From Roseibium salinum (GTDB lineage: Bacteria > Pseudomonadota > Alphaproteobacteria > Rhizobiales > Stappiaceae): 64,000 nt of DNA. Below, piece by piece: positions 22,899 to 54,886 of this stretch. Under the pieces are notes generated by a model. That model was not told the origin of the DNA, did no database searches, and worked only from the letters and a program-made list of their open reading frames with translations. Each line of letters opens with the position of its first letter. Positions within the stretch are counted from its first letter, which is position 1. The stretch lies in assembly GCF_026240905.1 (NCBI RefSeq), contig NZ_JAPEVI010000003.1, positions 3,534,001 through 3,598,000 of the forward strand, read 5' to 3'. Made by a program: the position numbers and the translations under genes.

Positions 22899-22936
22899 AA
22901 GGCGCGGCCCGAAAGGGTTCGCGCCTTTAACGTTTT
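22899..22936 (+). terminator. rho transcription terminator
   Basis: AAGGCGCG (22899-22906) pairs with CGCGCCTT (22920-22927) around a short loop and is followed by TAACGTTTTG. It lies 27 bases after the rho stop, preceded by a second small hairpin, GATCCCAGCGGGATC. Confidence 0.7.
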
Positions 22937-22986
22937 GTTAAACCTTGTTTCAGGTGAATCCCTTCCTTTGATTCGGATCCGATTTC

Positions 22987-48507: not shown

Positions 48508-48899
48508 TTCGTTGCGGAACGCAGAATTGACAAGGGCGCCCCAGGGCGCCCTTTCTCGTTTCCAAGGCAAAACGCGGGGCATTCCGCAGGTGACCCGGAT
48601 TTTGCGCAAACGATTCATAGATTTAGGGAAAACCCCTTCCCGGAAAAACCATATTAACAACTGGCGCCAGAAAAGAACGCGCCGGGCTTCACAAGACTGT
48701 CACCTCGGCACTACAATACTCCCATCACAAATGGACATGTTCCGCCGTCCGAATGACCGGGTAGCGGGCGATCCGACCGGATCAGCGTGTTTCATGTAAG
48801 AACGCATGAAGGCAGAGACGCGGATCGGCTTTAAGATGTTGGAGCATCTTGATTGCGATCATCTGAACGCGGAGATGCACTGGGTGTGAGGAGCGGAAG
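48508..48899. promoter_or_regulatory. leuC-HNH gene intergenic region
   Basis: These 392 bp hold the leuC terminator at 48532-48556 and the upstream region of the HNH gene. GAGGAG at 48888-48893 precedes its GTG start. No promoter could be fixed and no other gene was recognised. Confidence 0.35.
48532..48556 (+). terminator. leuC terminator
   Basis: AAGGGCGCC (48532-48540) pairs perfectly with GGCGCCCTT (48545-48553) around CCAG, followed by TCTCGTTT. Confidence 0.8.
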
Positions 48900-49457
48900 G
48901 TGACGATAGCGGTATCGCCGGGGGGCCATCCGGCGTTGGTGCTCAATGCGGATTACCGGCCTTTGAGTTACTATCCCTTGTCTTTGTGGTCCTGGCAGGA
49001 CACCGTCAAGGCGGTCTTTCTGGATCGGGTGAACATTGTCGCCGAATATGACGCGGCGGTTCGAAGTCCGAGCTTCGAATTCCGATTGCCCAGTGTTGTC
49101 TCCCTCAAGACCTTCGTCAAACCCAGCCGTTATCCCGCCTTCACACGCTTTAACGTTTTTCTTCGCGACAAATTCCAGTGCCAGTATTGCGGCTCCAAGG
49201 ACGAGCTGACCTTCGATCACCTGGTTCCACGCTCCAAGGGCGGCCTGACCACCTGGGAAAACGTGATCACCGCCTGCTCCCCTTGCAACTTGCGTAAATC
49301 CAACAAGTCCTGCGCGCAGCTGAACATGTGGCCGATGCACATGCCCTTCCAGCCGACCATTCAGGATCTCCACAACAACGGCCGCGGGTTCCCGCCGAAC
49401 TACCTGCACGACAGCTGGCTCGATTTCCTCTATTGGGACACCGAACTGGAGCCATGA
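48900..49457 (+). CDS. HNH endonuclease family protein
   Basis: The 185-residue protein has VLNADYRPLSYYPLSLWSWQDTVKAV at the N-terminus. The HNH core spans about residues 95-140: CQYCG, then DELTFDHLVPRSKGGLTTWENVITACSPCNLRKSNKS (zinc Cys pairs plus the catalytic His). This solo family is widespread in alphaproteobacteria and lacks a defined role; it is not tied to a phage here. GTG 48900 is chosen because of GAGGAG upstream. Confidence 0.9.
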   Translation: MTIAVSPGGHPALVLNADYRPLSYYPLSLWSWQDTVKAVFLDRVNIVAEYDAAVRSPSFEFRLPSVVSLKTFVKPSRYPAFTRFNVFLRDKFQCQYCGSKDELTFDHLVPRSKGGLTTWENVITACSPCNLRKSNKSCAQLNMWPMHMPFQPTIQDLHNNGRGFPPNYLHDSWLDFLYWDTELEP

Positions 49458-49539
49458 GGCCCGGCTTTCAAAAGCCCCGGCCCATGCTGCCGCACGTATC
49501 GGGGACGGTCTTGCCCATGGGTTTCGGGACCGGAATATG

Positions 49540-49577
49540 TTAACGGGATTTTAACCGGATACTTAAGGTCGATTTAA
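49540..49577. promoter_or_regulatory. Two tandem perfect CtrA boxes upstream of the first Tad-vWA gene
   Basis: TTAACGGGATTTTAA (49540-49554) and TTAAGGTCGATTTAA (49563-49577) both fit TTAA-N7-TTAA exactly. They lie 89 and 66 bases before the ATG at 49629. CtrA is the cell-cycle response regulator of alphaproteobacteria and commonly controls pili and motility. Confidence 0.8.
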
Positions 49578-49628
49578 GGGTTTAGGCACTTTTCTCAGGT
49601 AGTACTCACGCAGCGTTAAGAGGCTGCC

Positions 49629-51020
49629 ATGAGCAAGTTCCGTACTCCCGTCTTCCAATCCCTCGCCAGCAAGTTCAGGACCGACCGCACTGCATCGGTC
49701 CTTCCGCTGTTCGGGATCCTGGTCATCCTGCTCATCGTGGCTGCCGGTGCGGCAGTGGACGTAACGCGCACCGTCAGCGCGCGCGAAAAACTCGCCTATG
49801 CGCTGGATGCCGCGGCACTTACCGTCGCGGCTGATCTCTCCACTTCCTTCATGTCGGACGCGCAGATCAAGCAGGCGCTTTCGGATTCCTTCAAGGCCAA
49901 TCTTACCGGCGAAGAATTCCTGGATGACGCAATCGCCAATCTCAGCTTCGACGTCGACAGCGACAACGGTACCGTCACAGTCACTTCCTCTGCCGCGCTC
50001 GACAATTATTTCATCGACCTGGGCGGATACATGAAGGACAGCCTTGGTCCGGAGACGTTCACATTCGGAACCAGCTCACAGGTGTCCTTCTCGAGATTCA
50101 ACGTCGAGATGGCCATGGTTCTCGATGTCACCGGCTCGATGCAATATGACATGGATACATTGAGATCCGCGGCCAAGTCCGTCGTGAATATCCTTATTCC
50201 GGAAGGAGCCTCCGAAGCGGACAGCAAGGTCAGGATTTCGCTGGTTCCCTATTCCCAGGGCGTGAACCTGGGAAGTTACGCCGACGACGTGACGGACGGC
50301 GAAGCAACATCGGCAAATTGCGTGAACGAACGCGAGGGAGCAGAGAAATTCACCGATGCGGTCTATAATTATCTTGGCGAGGAATCCGATTTCTTCCACG
50401 GACGGCCGGAGTACCACATCCGTATCGATGGCGGCCGCGAGTATGTCTACAGCGGCACCGACAAGTGCCCGGACAGCGAAATCGTCCCGCTGACGTCAAA
50501 TAGAGAAACCCTGGTCGACGAGATTTCGGATCTCACCGATGGCGGCGGTACAGGCGGCCAGACAGGGATTGCCTGGGGCTGGTACACGCTGTCGCCGAAC
50601 TGGGCTCCCTTGTGGCCGGTGGAAAGCGATCCCGAACCATACGCGAACGATGATGCTCTCAAGTTCGCGCTGGTTATGACCGACGGCGATTTCAACGCCG
50701 AATACAGCCGATCAAAAGTATGCGATCGGAAGGGCAAGTGCTCGACAAGCGAACATTGGGTCGAACGGTATCACAACAACTCCGACTACGACGATCCCCC
50801 GGCAGTACGTGCCCGGGCACTGTGTGACGCCATGAAGGAGAGCGGCATCAAGGTCTATGCCGTATATTTCGATACCGGCGGATCCGCATTCGGCGCCGAC
50901 CTGATGAGCAACTGTTCCAGCGGCAGCGGCTACTACTACGAAGCCGATTCACCTGAGGAACTGATCACTGCTTTTGGCAACATCGCCAAGAAGATCCAGT
51001 CGATCTATCTTTCCAAATAG
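49629..51020 (+). CDS. Tad-type (TadG-like) protein with von Willebrand A domain, copy 1
   Basis: The 463-residue protein has a basic N-terminus and one pilin-like membrane segment near residues 26-46 (LPLFGILVILLIVAAGAAVD), then AREKLAYALDAAALTVA as in TadE/TadG proteins. The vWA domain has the metal site DVTGSM (near 166-171), TGGQTGIAWGWYTLSP and LVMTDGDFN. It ends IAKKIQSIYLSK. The protein is probably anchored in the inner membrane and exposed outside. No tad locus is adjacent. The next gene is a clear paralogue. Confidence 0.88.
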   Translation: MSKFRTPVFQSLASKFRTDRTASVLPLFGILVILLIVAAGAAVDVTRTVSAREKLAYALDAAALTVAADLSTSFMSDAQIKQALSDSFKANLTGEEFLDDAIANLSFDVDSDNGTVTVTSSAALDNYFIDLGGYMKDSLGPETFTFGTSSQVSFSRFNVEMAMVLDVTGSMQYDMDTLRSAAKSVVNILIPEGASEADSKVRISLVPYSQGVNLGSYADDVTDGEATSANCVNEREGAEKFTDAVYNYLGEESDFFHGRPEYHIRIDGGREYVYSGTDKCPDSEIVPLTSNRETLVDEISDLTDGGGTGGQTGIAWGWYTLSPNWAPLWPVESDPEPYANDDALKFALVMTDGDFNAEYSRSKVCDRKGKCSTSEHWVERYHNNSDYDDPPAVRARALCDAMKESGIKVYAVYFDTGGSAFGADLMSNCSSGSGYYYEADSPEELITAFGNIAKKIQSIYLSK

Positions 51021-51129
51021 CAGGCAATCCGACGCTTTCCAGAACGCGTTGCTGCACGTAAAAGTAGAAGATAAAAACTTGTCGCGCTGTATTAGGTCTT
51101 CCGGTAGAAGGCTCAATTTCTTGGTAGTA

Positions 51130-51165
51130 TTAACTGGTTTTTAACTTCCTACCGAAGGTCGATTT
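51130..51165. promoter_or_regulatory. CtrA box plus half site upstream of the second Tad-vWA gene
   Basis: TTAACTGGTTTTTAA (51130-51144) fits TTAA-N7-TTAA exactly and lies 88 bases before ATG 51218. The second box of copy 1 is present as CGAAGGTCGATTTAA, so only its right half matches. The sequence down to the start codon is closely related to that of copy 1. Confidence 0.75.
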
Positions 51166-51217
51166 AAGGATTTGACCACCTTTCTAAGGTAGTACTCTTG
51201 AGCATCAAGAGGGCACC

Positions 51218-52582
51218 ATGAACAAGAGTCAGTTTAACCGGTTGCGATCTCTTTTCCGAGATCTCGTTCAGGACAAAAGCGCATCGATCCTACCGCTGTT
51301 CGGGCTGACGGTGGTGCTGCTCGTCGTGATGGGCGGTCTGGCGGTCGACATTTCGCGCGCAGTGAGCGCGCGGGAAAAGCTCTCCTACGCGCTCGATGCC
51401 GCGGCTCTTTCACTGGCCGCGGAACTGTCGTCTTCTCTGATGACGGATAAAGAGATAAAAGAGGCTCTCTCGGATTCCATGAAGGCCAATCTGGGGAATG
51501 CCGAGTTCCTGGACGAGGCCCTGAAGAATCTCACGCACACCGTCGATCCCGAAAACGGCCAGGTCTCCGTGTCCTCGTCAGCGTCACTGGAGAACTACTT
51601 CCTCGATATTGGCGGCTTCGGGAAGGAAGCCATGGGTCCAGAGGCCTTTACCTTCGGCACAAGTGCTCAGGCCACTTTTTCACGCTACGATGTCGAACTT
51701 GCGATGGTTCTGGACGTCACGGGATCGATGGCGTCCCACGTGGAGTCGCTGAAAAAGGCAGCATGGTCGGCGCTCAACATTCTCATCCCGAAGGATACCA
51801 GCGAAGCGGAGAGTAAGGTGCGGATCTCGATGATCCCCTATAGCGAGGGGGTCAATCTGGGGGAATTTGCCAACAAGGTCGCGCAGGGCGCGCAAGGTAC
51901 GCAGAACTGCGTTACCGAGAGATTGGGTGCTGCCCAGTTCACCGACGATCCTTATGACTACGACAGCGAGAACGAAAACTCCTATTTTGGTGGCGGTTCG
52001 AAGGGCTGCGCTCCCTCACCGCAGCTGGAACCCTTGACGGCCAAGCGGAACAAGATCGATGCCGCTATCGGCAAGCTGACGACGAGCGGAGGCACCGCGG
52101 GGCAGACCGGCATCGCCTGGGGATGGTACACCCTATCTCCGAAATGGGCCGATCTCTGGCCGAAGGCCAGCGTGCCGGCTTCCTACGACGATGAAAAGAT
52201 CCTGAAGTTCGCCATCATCATGACCGACGGGGACTTCAACCGGTACTACTACAAGGAGAGCCTGACAAAAAAACAGTGTCAGGACAGGTGGTACATCACG
52301 GAGACCTGCAAGAACGGCACGAACGAGTATTGGCGCCCTGATAGCAGCTGGGGCTATTGGGGAGAGTCGTCCCAGCGTGCAATGGAACTCTGCAGCGGAA
52401 TGAAAGCCGAGGGTATCAAGGTCTATTCGATCTTCTTCGGGCCTTACAAGTACAATCCCGTCAAGGTGATGGAAAACTGCGCCAGCGAAAACGGCTACTA
52501 CTACGCCAATTCAGAAGAGGAACTTATTCAGGCTTTCGGCAACATCGCCAAGAAGATCCAGGCGATCCACCTGTCGAAATGA
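51218..52582 (+). CDS. Tad-type (TadG-like) protein with von Willebrand A domain, copy 2
   Basis: This 454-residue paralogue of the preceding gene has the same layout: a membrane segment near 27-46 (LPLFGLTVVLLVVMGGLAVD), AREKLSYALDAAALSLA, DVTGSM metal site, TAGQTGIAWGWYTLSP, IIMTDGDFN, and the identical-style end NIAKKIQAIHLSK. The middle segment with Cys residues differs most between copies, suggesting separate ligands. It has its own CtrA-box promoter, so copies 1 and 2 can be expressed independently. Confidence 0.88.
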   Translation: MNKSQFNRLRSLFRDLVQDKSASILPLFGLTVVLLVVMGGLAVDISRAVSAREKLSYALDAAALSLAAELSSSLMTDKEIKEALSDSMKANLGNAEFLDEALKNLTHTVDPENGQVSVSSSASLENYFLDIGGFGKEAMGPEAFTFGTSAQATFSRYDVELAMVLDVTGSMASHVESLKKAAWSALNILIPKDTSEAESKVRISMIPYSEGVNLGEFANKVAQGAQGTQNCVTERLGAAQFTDDPYDYDSENENSYFGGGSKGCAPSPQLEPLTAKRNKIDAAIGKLTTSGGTAGQTGIAWGWYTLSPKWADLWPKASVPASYDDEKILKFAIIMTDGDFNRYYYKESLTKKQCQDRWYITETCKNGTNEYWRPDSSWGYWGESSQRAMELCSGMKAEGIKVYSIFFGPYKYNPVKVMENCASENGYYYANSEEELIQAFGNIAKKIQAIHLSK

Positions 52583-52597
52583 GCTGCGAACCGTAAT

Positions 52598-52630
52598 GGA
52601 AAAGGCCCGCCGGATCGGCGGGCCTTTTCC
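52598..52630. terminator. Bidirectional terminator between Tad-vWA copy 2 and acs
   Basis: GGAAAAGGCCCGCCG pairs perfectly with CGGCGGGCCTTTTCC around a three-base loop, giving a 15-bp stem flanked by A and T runs. It serves both converging genes. Confidence 0.88.
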
Positions 52631-52654
52631 TGTTTCTGCATGCCCTGCCGAACC

Positions 52655-54601
<1,947 letters not shown>

Positions 54602-54886
54602 GTGAGAACCTCCCAGAAACCACATTCGGCTCAGCGGCAGGCTTTTTCCGTCCTCACCGCCGGCCCTTAATTTGTCGGGGCCATTATGCTCATGGCCCCT
54701 GTCAGCGTCCAGAACCAACATTTGGTACTTTAGTCGCCCAGCCCTTGGTCTAATGCGTTCAAAAAACGCAAGGATTTACGTCCGCAGCAGTTGATGCGGG
54801 CCGGTCGAAGCATCCCCTATCAGTAATATGTCGAGCCGGTATTTGCCACCCTTCGAAACAAAGTTACGGGCCCGGGACGATCGGGT

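Follow-up and report, generated by a model that had tools for sequence, protein, structure and literature searches.

A 64,000-nucleotide stretch of the Roseibium salinum genome (assembly GCF_026240905.1, contig NZ_JAPEVI010000003.1, positions 3,534,001 to 3,598,000; hereafter the window) carries two tandem genes for proteins that combine a Tad/pilin-like N-terminus with a vWA domain. On balance, we read them as alternative tip subunits of a Tad pilus, each preceded by one or two CtrA-type boxes, a promoter core, and a hairpin over the Shine-Dalgarno site that would throttle translation. Pairing in this hairpin is retained through sequence change, and the covarying hairpin has so far been found at this gene family alone.

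Two tandem CpaL/TadG-type genes

49629-51020, forward strand: gene 1, CpaL/TadG type, Tad/pilin-like N-terminus plus vWA domain, 463 aa
51218-52582, forward strand: gene 2, CpaL/TadG type, Tad/pilin-like N-terminus plus vWA domain, 454 aa

The two proteins are tandem paralogues (52% identical), as an earlier sequence-only reading of this DNA had proposed: both carry the Tad domain PF13400 above the Pfam cut-off (residues 23-69 in protein 1, 23-65 in protein 2), and DVTGSM starts at residue 166 in each. The structure model and structural matches place the vWA domain C-terminal to the pilin-like part, supporting the adhesion-type fold of that reading; the Pfam VWA models fell below cut-off for both proteins, and neither exceeded the cut-off of any NCBIfam family. 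The vWA metal site is intact in both. The five-residue metal-ion-dependent adhesion site (MIDAS) of protein 2 (D166, T168, S170, T293, D337) is invariant across 19 aligned homologues, 17 of them from the best 120 of the 635 sequences in the homologue search, and the MIDAS D-to-D spacing is 171 and 186 in the pair. Homology, fold, and metal site are thus established computationally, and a tip location with adhesion or surface sensing is the role we infer for both proteins. A defense-system assignment was rejected, as PADLOC returned no match. Among relatives, genomes G011 and G058 carry the family gene as two overlapping half-length frames and G017 carries it with internal stops, each a possible case of decay or sequencing error.

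Conserved pairing over the Shine-Dalgarno site

49598-49628, forward strand: predicted 5' untranslated region hairpin of gene 1, -10.6 kcal/mol, with the Shine-Dalgarno GAGG (49620-49623) in the stem
51188-51217, forward strand: predicted 5' untranslated region hairpin of gene 2, -12.7 kcal/mol

Three of the four bases of the gene 2 Shine-Dalgarno GAGG (51209-51212) are paired, and this hairpin is the sole one with z below -2 (z -2.5) among the window's 49 mechanically called open reading frames (ORFs); the gene 1 hairpin alone is no better than shuffles (z -0.9). Across 27 aligned family upstreams, the 3' arm of the hairpin carries the Shine-Dalgarno GAGG. Pannonibacter (L069, L071) forms its hairpin from a different sequence, GAACTCCA-loop-TGGAGTTC, and R. 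aquae (L070) from ACTCTCCG-loop-CGGAGAGT. Because the Pannonibacter hairpin stands without the promoter core, the hairpin is a wider feature than the core.

Re-dealing the arms among genes weakened the mean folding energy from -9.83 to -5.74 kcal/mol (z -10.8, 0/10,000; 51 upstreams, 40 non-redundant, with no drops among loci L044-L082). A set of 46 upstreams (36 non-redundant), from which L056, L063, L065, and L067 were dropped because their starts are unclear, gave z -9.9 (0/20,000), and a second set, its sequences partly shared, gave z -6.8 (0/5,000; 33 upstreams, 30 non-redundant). The same swap on neighboring genes returned z values of 2.0 for leuC, -1.6 for HNH, 0.8 for rplS, and 0.0 for acsA. 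Of the 51 upstreams, 42 have a recognizable Shine-Dalgarno site; in 35 of these, pairing covers at least 75% of the site, whereas shuffling the bases before it gave 25.3 such upstreams (standard deviation 3.0, maximum 32). Column counts over the 27 rows were mixed, because the inner stem hardly varies in this close set: 81.4% of cells are paired, a level reached in 3/500 shuffles, versus 77.4%; the covariation score was reached in 12/500 and the number of pairs changed on both sides in 213/500.

RNA thermometers and similar hairpins also lay a stem across the ribosome-binding site. Unlike known Shine-Dalgarno-hiding hairpins, the present one has no Rfam family, its stem and loop sequence is free to change, and it belongs to one gene family. 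Rfam searches of 48800-53000 at E up to 1 gave no match across the hairpins, and for known RNA families returned just weak sub-threshold matches at 52570-52711, off the hairpins. We also built a covariance model (R1) of promoter plus hairpin from the 27 family upstreams. Within its own genome (E up to 10) R1 matched the two window sites only, a match by construction since both upstreams are in the model. Across 61 family genomes (E up to 0.1) it gave 16 matches in 11 genomes—11 of the 19 congeneric genomes, none of the 42 others—with some matched sequences already in the model. By eye, each of the 16 falls where a family gene begins, and 15 reach the ATG; the match in G060 stops about 40 bases short of the assigned start. 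A wider regulon sharing the promoter-hairpin module was not found at R1's sensitivity, matches falling only at family genes; because R1 includes the promoter, a lone hairpin elsewhere could escape.

Promoters with CtrA-type boxes

49540-49554, forward strand: perfect TTAA-N7-TTAA box, -89 from the gene 1 ATG
49563-49577, forward strand: second perfect TTAA-N7-TTAA box, -66 from the gene 1 ATG
51130-51144, forward strand: perfect TTAA-N7-TTAA box, -88 from the gene 2 ATG
49581-49595, forward strand: promoter core of gene 1, TTTAGGCACTTTTCT, one mismatch to the family block
51171-51185, forward strand: promoter core of gene 2, TTTGACCACCTTTCT, five mismatches to the family block
51155-51169, also 49565-49579, forward strand: 15-mer AAGGTCGATTTAAGG

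The boxes that the sequence-only reading had placed 89 and 88 bases before the two ATGs are exact; the third perfect box, at -66, had been overlooked, together with the conserved core, the covarying hairpin, and the fixed slot described below. Gene 2 has no second perfect box. Dinucleotide shuffles of both intergenic regions (171 + 197 bases) yielded a mean of 0.026 boxes; three boxes were reached in 0/20,000 shuffles, and one in each region in 0.01%. Across the family, seven promoters, five of them from other genomes, carry a box at -88 to -90. The 27 aligned upstreams share a near-invariant TTAA (mostly TTTAAG), the core TTTAGGTACTTTTCT, and the hairpin just before the ATG, with the TTAA half-site beside the core in nearly all rows. 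In three upstreams, those of L056 and L065 (before 7998) and of L142 (before 1501), the core is set back from the assigned start codon by some 40 additional bases, and no hairpin of the usual kind is present; the throttle may have been lost there, or the starts may be misassigned.

The shared upstream block named earlier is real: AAGGTCGATTTAAGG has exact copies at these two places only in the genome, the next best carrying 2 mismatches. Over -70 to -26, the pair's two promoters share 78% identity, whereas no other family promoter compared exceeds 69% identity to either; this likeness suggests later homogenization or shared constraint. In the protein tree, protein 1 groups with L065, L054 copy 3, and P0081, and protein 2 with L044 copy 2. 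Since the two fall in separate clades, the pair predates this genome's lineage. The notion of a promoter-plus-gene unit "duplicated and kept" calls for revision, the clades of the proteins being separate and older; a recent duplication of that unit was rejected for the proteins, as both clades are supported.

Eight proteins beside other perfect boxes, picked from a mechanical listing and scanned with Pfam, comprise a flagellin, a GGDEF protein, a zinc-ribbon protein, a transglutaminase-like protease, a sigma-70 protein, a penicillin-binding protein, an outer-membrane barrel, and one without a match. The flagellin, GGDEF, and zinc-ribbon genes are suggestive of CtrA, short of proof. In Sinorhizobium meliloti, the pilA1 and flaA promoters are among those bound by CtrA (PMC4433202), and CtrA may likewise control both genes of the pair. 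In Caulobacter, additional CtrA sites lower and delay pilA expression (PMC11264516); a similar delay here could come from the -89 box.

Other perfect boxes were noted in passing. One (22927-22941) lies 45 bases ahead of a 191-aa ORF that is GNAT acetyltransferase-like by eye. Two, 28 bases apart, stand ahead of an outer-membrane beta-barrel gene (C3:4202238-4202295; L100:1739-1796). Another, at position 1635 of L112, precedes a zinc-ribbon/DUF3426 protein (557-1495), which we take to be possibly like Caulobacter ZitP.

A fixed slot with varying copy number

48900-49457, forward strand: HNH endonuclease-like gene (PF01844), left border of the slot
52655-54721, reverse strand: acsA-like gene (acetyl-CoA synthetase, named by eye), right border of the slot

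The slot survey covered 39 loci from Stappiaceae and close relatives (L044-L082) out of 54 in all; the other 15 (L083-L097) are distant and were set aside, with nine of them inspected. The family gene lies between HNH and acsA in 36 of the 39 loci; L076 shows the left neighbors only, and L067 and L072 carry the gene elsewhere. Across 37 slots, 29 hold one copy, six hold two, and two hold three; the window holds two. Each of the 62 sampled family genomes yielded a homologue with an E-value no higher than 1e-20, a few hits being partial or weak, among them those of G017 (internal stops) and G042 (1.3e-21). Farther out, the relative in L091 (a Caulobacter bin) adjoins rplS and leuC but has a MIDAS spacing of 272, and the neighbors of the relatives in L087 (spacing 355) and L092 (354) differ from those of L091.

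Proposed mechanism and alternatives

Genes 1 and 2 would supply alternative tip subunits to the Tad pilus of the genome's main tad cluster, which provides TadE- and TadF-like minor pilins but, in the stretch fetched, no TadG. One or two CtrA-type boxes would time transcription with other surface and motility genes, and the hairpin, by pairing with the Shine-Dalgarno site and hiding the ribosome site, would keep translation low. With such a built-in translational throttle, tip subunits would remain few compared with shaft pilin. Pilus assembly begins with minor pilins, whose ratio to the major pilin governs pilus dynamics in Vibrio cholerae (PMC13249403). Because a tip protein needs few copies, a throttle acting by structure only is the simplest reading; the variety of loop and stem sequences speaks against a partner that recognizes a particular sequence. 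CtrA as the factor, the transcription start, and the throttle are the parts that we infer. A broader version, which we consider rather unlikely as it stands, makes the slot, in Roseibium and its relatives, a fixed site for a changing set of one to three interchangeable tip mechanosensors or adhesins, each having its own cell-cycle promoter and a structure-only RNA throttle; this RNA device would be dedicated to pilin stoichiometry and favored by selection since the tip-to-shaft ratio would determine how frequently pili fire.

Several observations weigh against parts of the proposed mechanism, and the promoter is where they are most numerous. The TTAA boxes may be bound by a different factor, or belong to a plain AT-rich promoter, with no CtrA control, and we give this a sizable minority chance. 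Across the whole 5.78-Mb genome, perfect boxes number 32 versus 38 for a reversed control pattern, so the motif itself is not enriched genome-wide; it is enriched over shuffled DNA at these two intergenic regions. Among 41 non-redundant family promoters only five have a perfect box, two being the window's own, and the full box is not conserved in orthologues, whose near-invariant part is the half-site only. In the nine inspected distant relatives, no box (up to one mismatch) was found within 300 bases of L083, L085, L087, L088, L091, L092, or L093—four of which (L087, L091, L092, L093) are Caulobacteraceae—and L084 and L086 have one 1-mismatch box each. The two Flp upstream stretches inspected lack a perfect box, one having a 1-mismatch box. 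Position brings a risk for gene 1: Caulobacter has one activating full CtrA box with its 5' base at -39 (PMC4287350), and the same spacing from the -66 box would have transcription begin at about -27, within the gene 1 hairpin or at its base (predicted stem from -31). CtrA is nonetheless favored by three boxes where 0.026 are expected, by their constant position in seven promoters, by the half-site kept beside the core in nearly all 27 rows, and by the flagellin, GGDEF, and zinc-ribbon genes behind other perfect boxes.

The hairpin and the proteins admit alternatives of their own. An RNA thermometer, a stabilizer of the mRNA 5' end, or a stem read as DNA by a protein would each preserve a stem, and the Shine-Dalgarno site need not be the hairpin's target; such a role is a tenable, though less probable, account. 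The excess of paired Shine-Dalgarno sites over shuffles (35/42 versus 25.3) favors a role in translation, and free change of stem and loop between species with pairing kept disfavors a protein that reads the sequence. It is unlikely that the proteins act apart from any pilus, as membrane-anchored periplasmic vWA proteins in adhesion or signaling whose Tad-like N-terminus is a mere anchor. That view draws on the distance of the pair from the tad clusters, on a prepilin-peptidase site (G/A-X4-F/E) without an exact match (by eye, A22-SILP-L27-F28, with F one residue past the consensus), and on the N-terminal part of the structure model, where the first 40 residues, including part of a long helix (24-72), have a low predicted local distance difference test score. 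Against it, CpaL is likewise an orphan yet affects piliation (PMC12607857), a structural match to the PilB minor pilin spans residues 39-454 (though at a root-mean-square deviation of 10.8), and the fetched stretch of the main tad cluster shows no Tad-domain TadG.

Relation to known systems

CpaL/TadG-type tip pilins are an already known kind of protein, described in Caulobacter (PMC12607857), so the sequence-only reading's "apparently undescribed" system falls. CpaL, a vWA minor pilin encoded as an orphan outside its pilus cluster, has been proposed to occupy the tip of the Tad pilus (PMC12607857). The pair resembles Caulobacter crescentus CpaL in this orphan position (PMC12607857, PMC13170226); in its Tad/pilin-like N-terminus, vWA domain, five-residue MIDAS, and identical top structural matches; and in a main cluster with TadE-/TadF-like partners, the counterparts in Caulobacter being CpaJ and CpaK (PMC12607857, PMC13170226). 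It differs in a much shorter vWA insertion: The MIDAS spacing of 171 and 186 compares with 355 in CpaL (D160, T162, S164, T470, D515; PMC12607857), which has a beta-rich insertion of about 180 residues that the pair does not share. As this insertion is not common to all TadG-type proteins, we file the pair under the CpaL/TadG type rather than CpaL. Also unlike CpaL, the pair's family varies from one to three copies in tandem and carries the covarying Shine-Dalgarno hairpin, no such hairpin being reported for cpaL in the excerpts available (PMC12607857, PMC13170226).

TadG of tad clusters is a large minor pilin for which a backbone role has been proposed, in a tip complex that also includes TadE and TadF (PMC12075869); unlike it, the pair is unlinked to any tad cluster, and likeness between protein 2 and the TadG-position protein of the genome's second tad-like cluster was not detectable. 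The Kil system of Myxococcus xanthus likewise has several alternative minor-pilin tips per Tad-type pilus, but its tips are multi-gene clusters (PMC12075869), whereas here they would be tandem single genes, presumed interchangeable. The promoters recall that of C. crescentus pilA, with a CtrA site at -35 and further upstream sites; those sites were footprinted and mutated (PMC11264516), whereas the boxes here offer a resemblance. The titles and abstract starts in our literature search included none on these Roseibium genes or on a hairpin before cpaL/tadG. Within the literature searched, the fixed slot with varying copy number, the box-plus-core promoter, and the covarying Shine-Dalgarno hairpin are new. 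They link CpaL-type tip proteins, current candidates for surface sensing, to two candidate layers of control in a group that is marine and often associated with hosts. Should the hairpin set the dose of tip protein, this would explain how distant genes yield few tip initiators and many shaft subunits; the tandem copies raise the question of Tad tip swapping outside Myxococcus.

tad clusters elsewhere in the genome

The pair does lie far from any tad locus, as stated earlier: the three other Tad-domain genes and the two Flp pilins are all outside the window. PF13400 identifies five Tad-domain proteins in the genome, none of them in the fetched stretch of the main tad cluster (L104, C3:2789000-2800000), which carries a secretin, a prepilin peptidase, a ParA-like ATPase, Flp, TadE, and a TadF-like protein below Pfam cut-offs. 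No TadG with a Tad domain was found in that stretch; a TadG without a recognizable Tad domain, or one encoded beyond the stretch, could escape.

A second tad-like cluster (C3:4480000-4490000; L101:6833-9563) has its own Tad-domain protein and two TadE-like proteins, with two perfect boxes about 3 kb before them. A further Tad-domain protein, of 477 aa, lies on a 441-kb contig (C2:250000-264000; L102:3143-4573); its N-terminus shares 40% identity with protein 2 across 53 residues, the rest giving no match, and by eye it lies near plasmid repA/repB-like genes.

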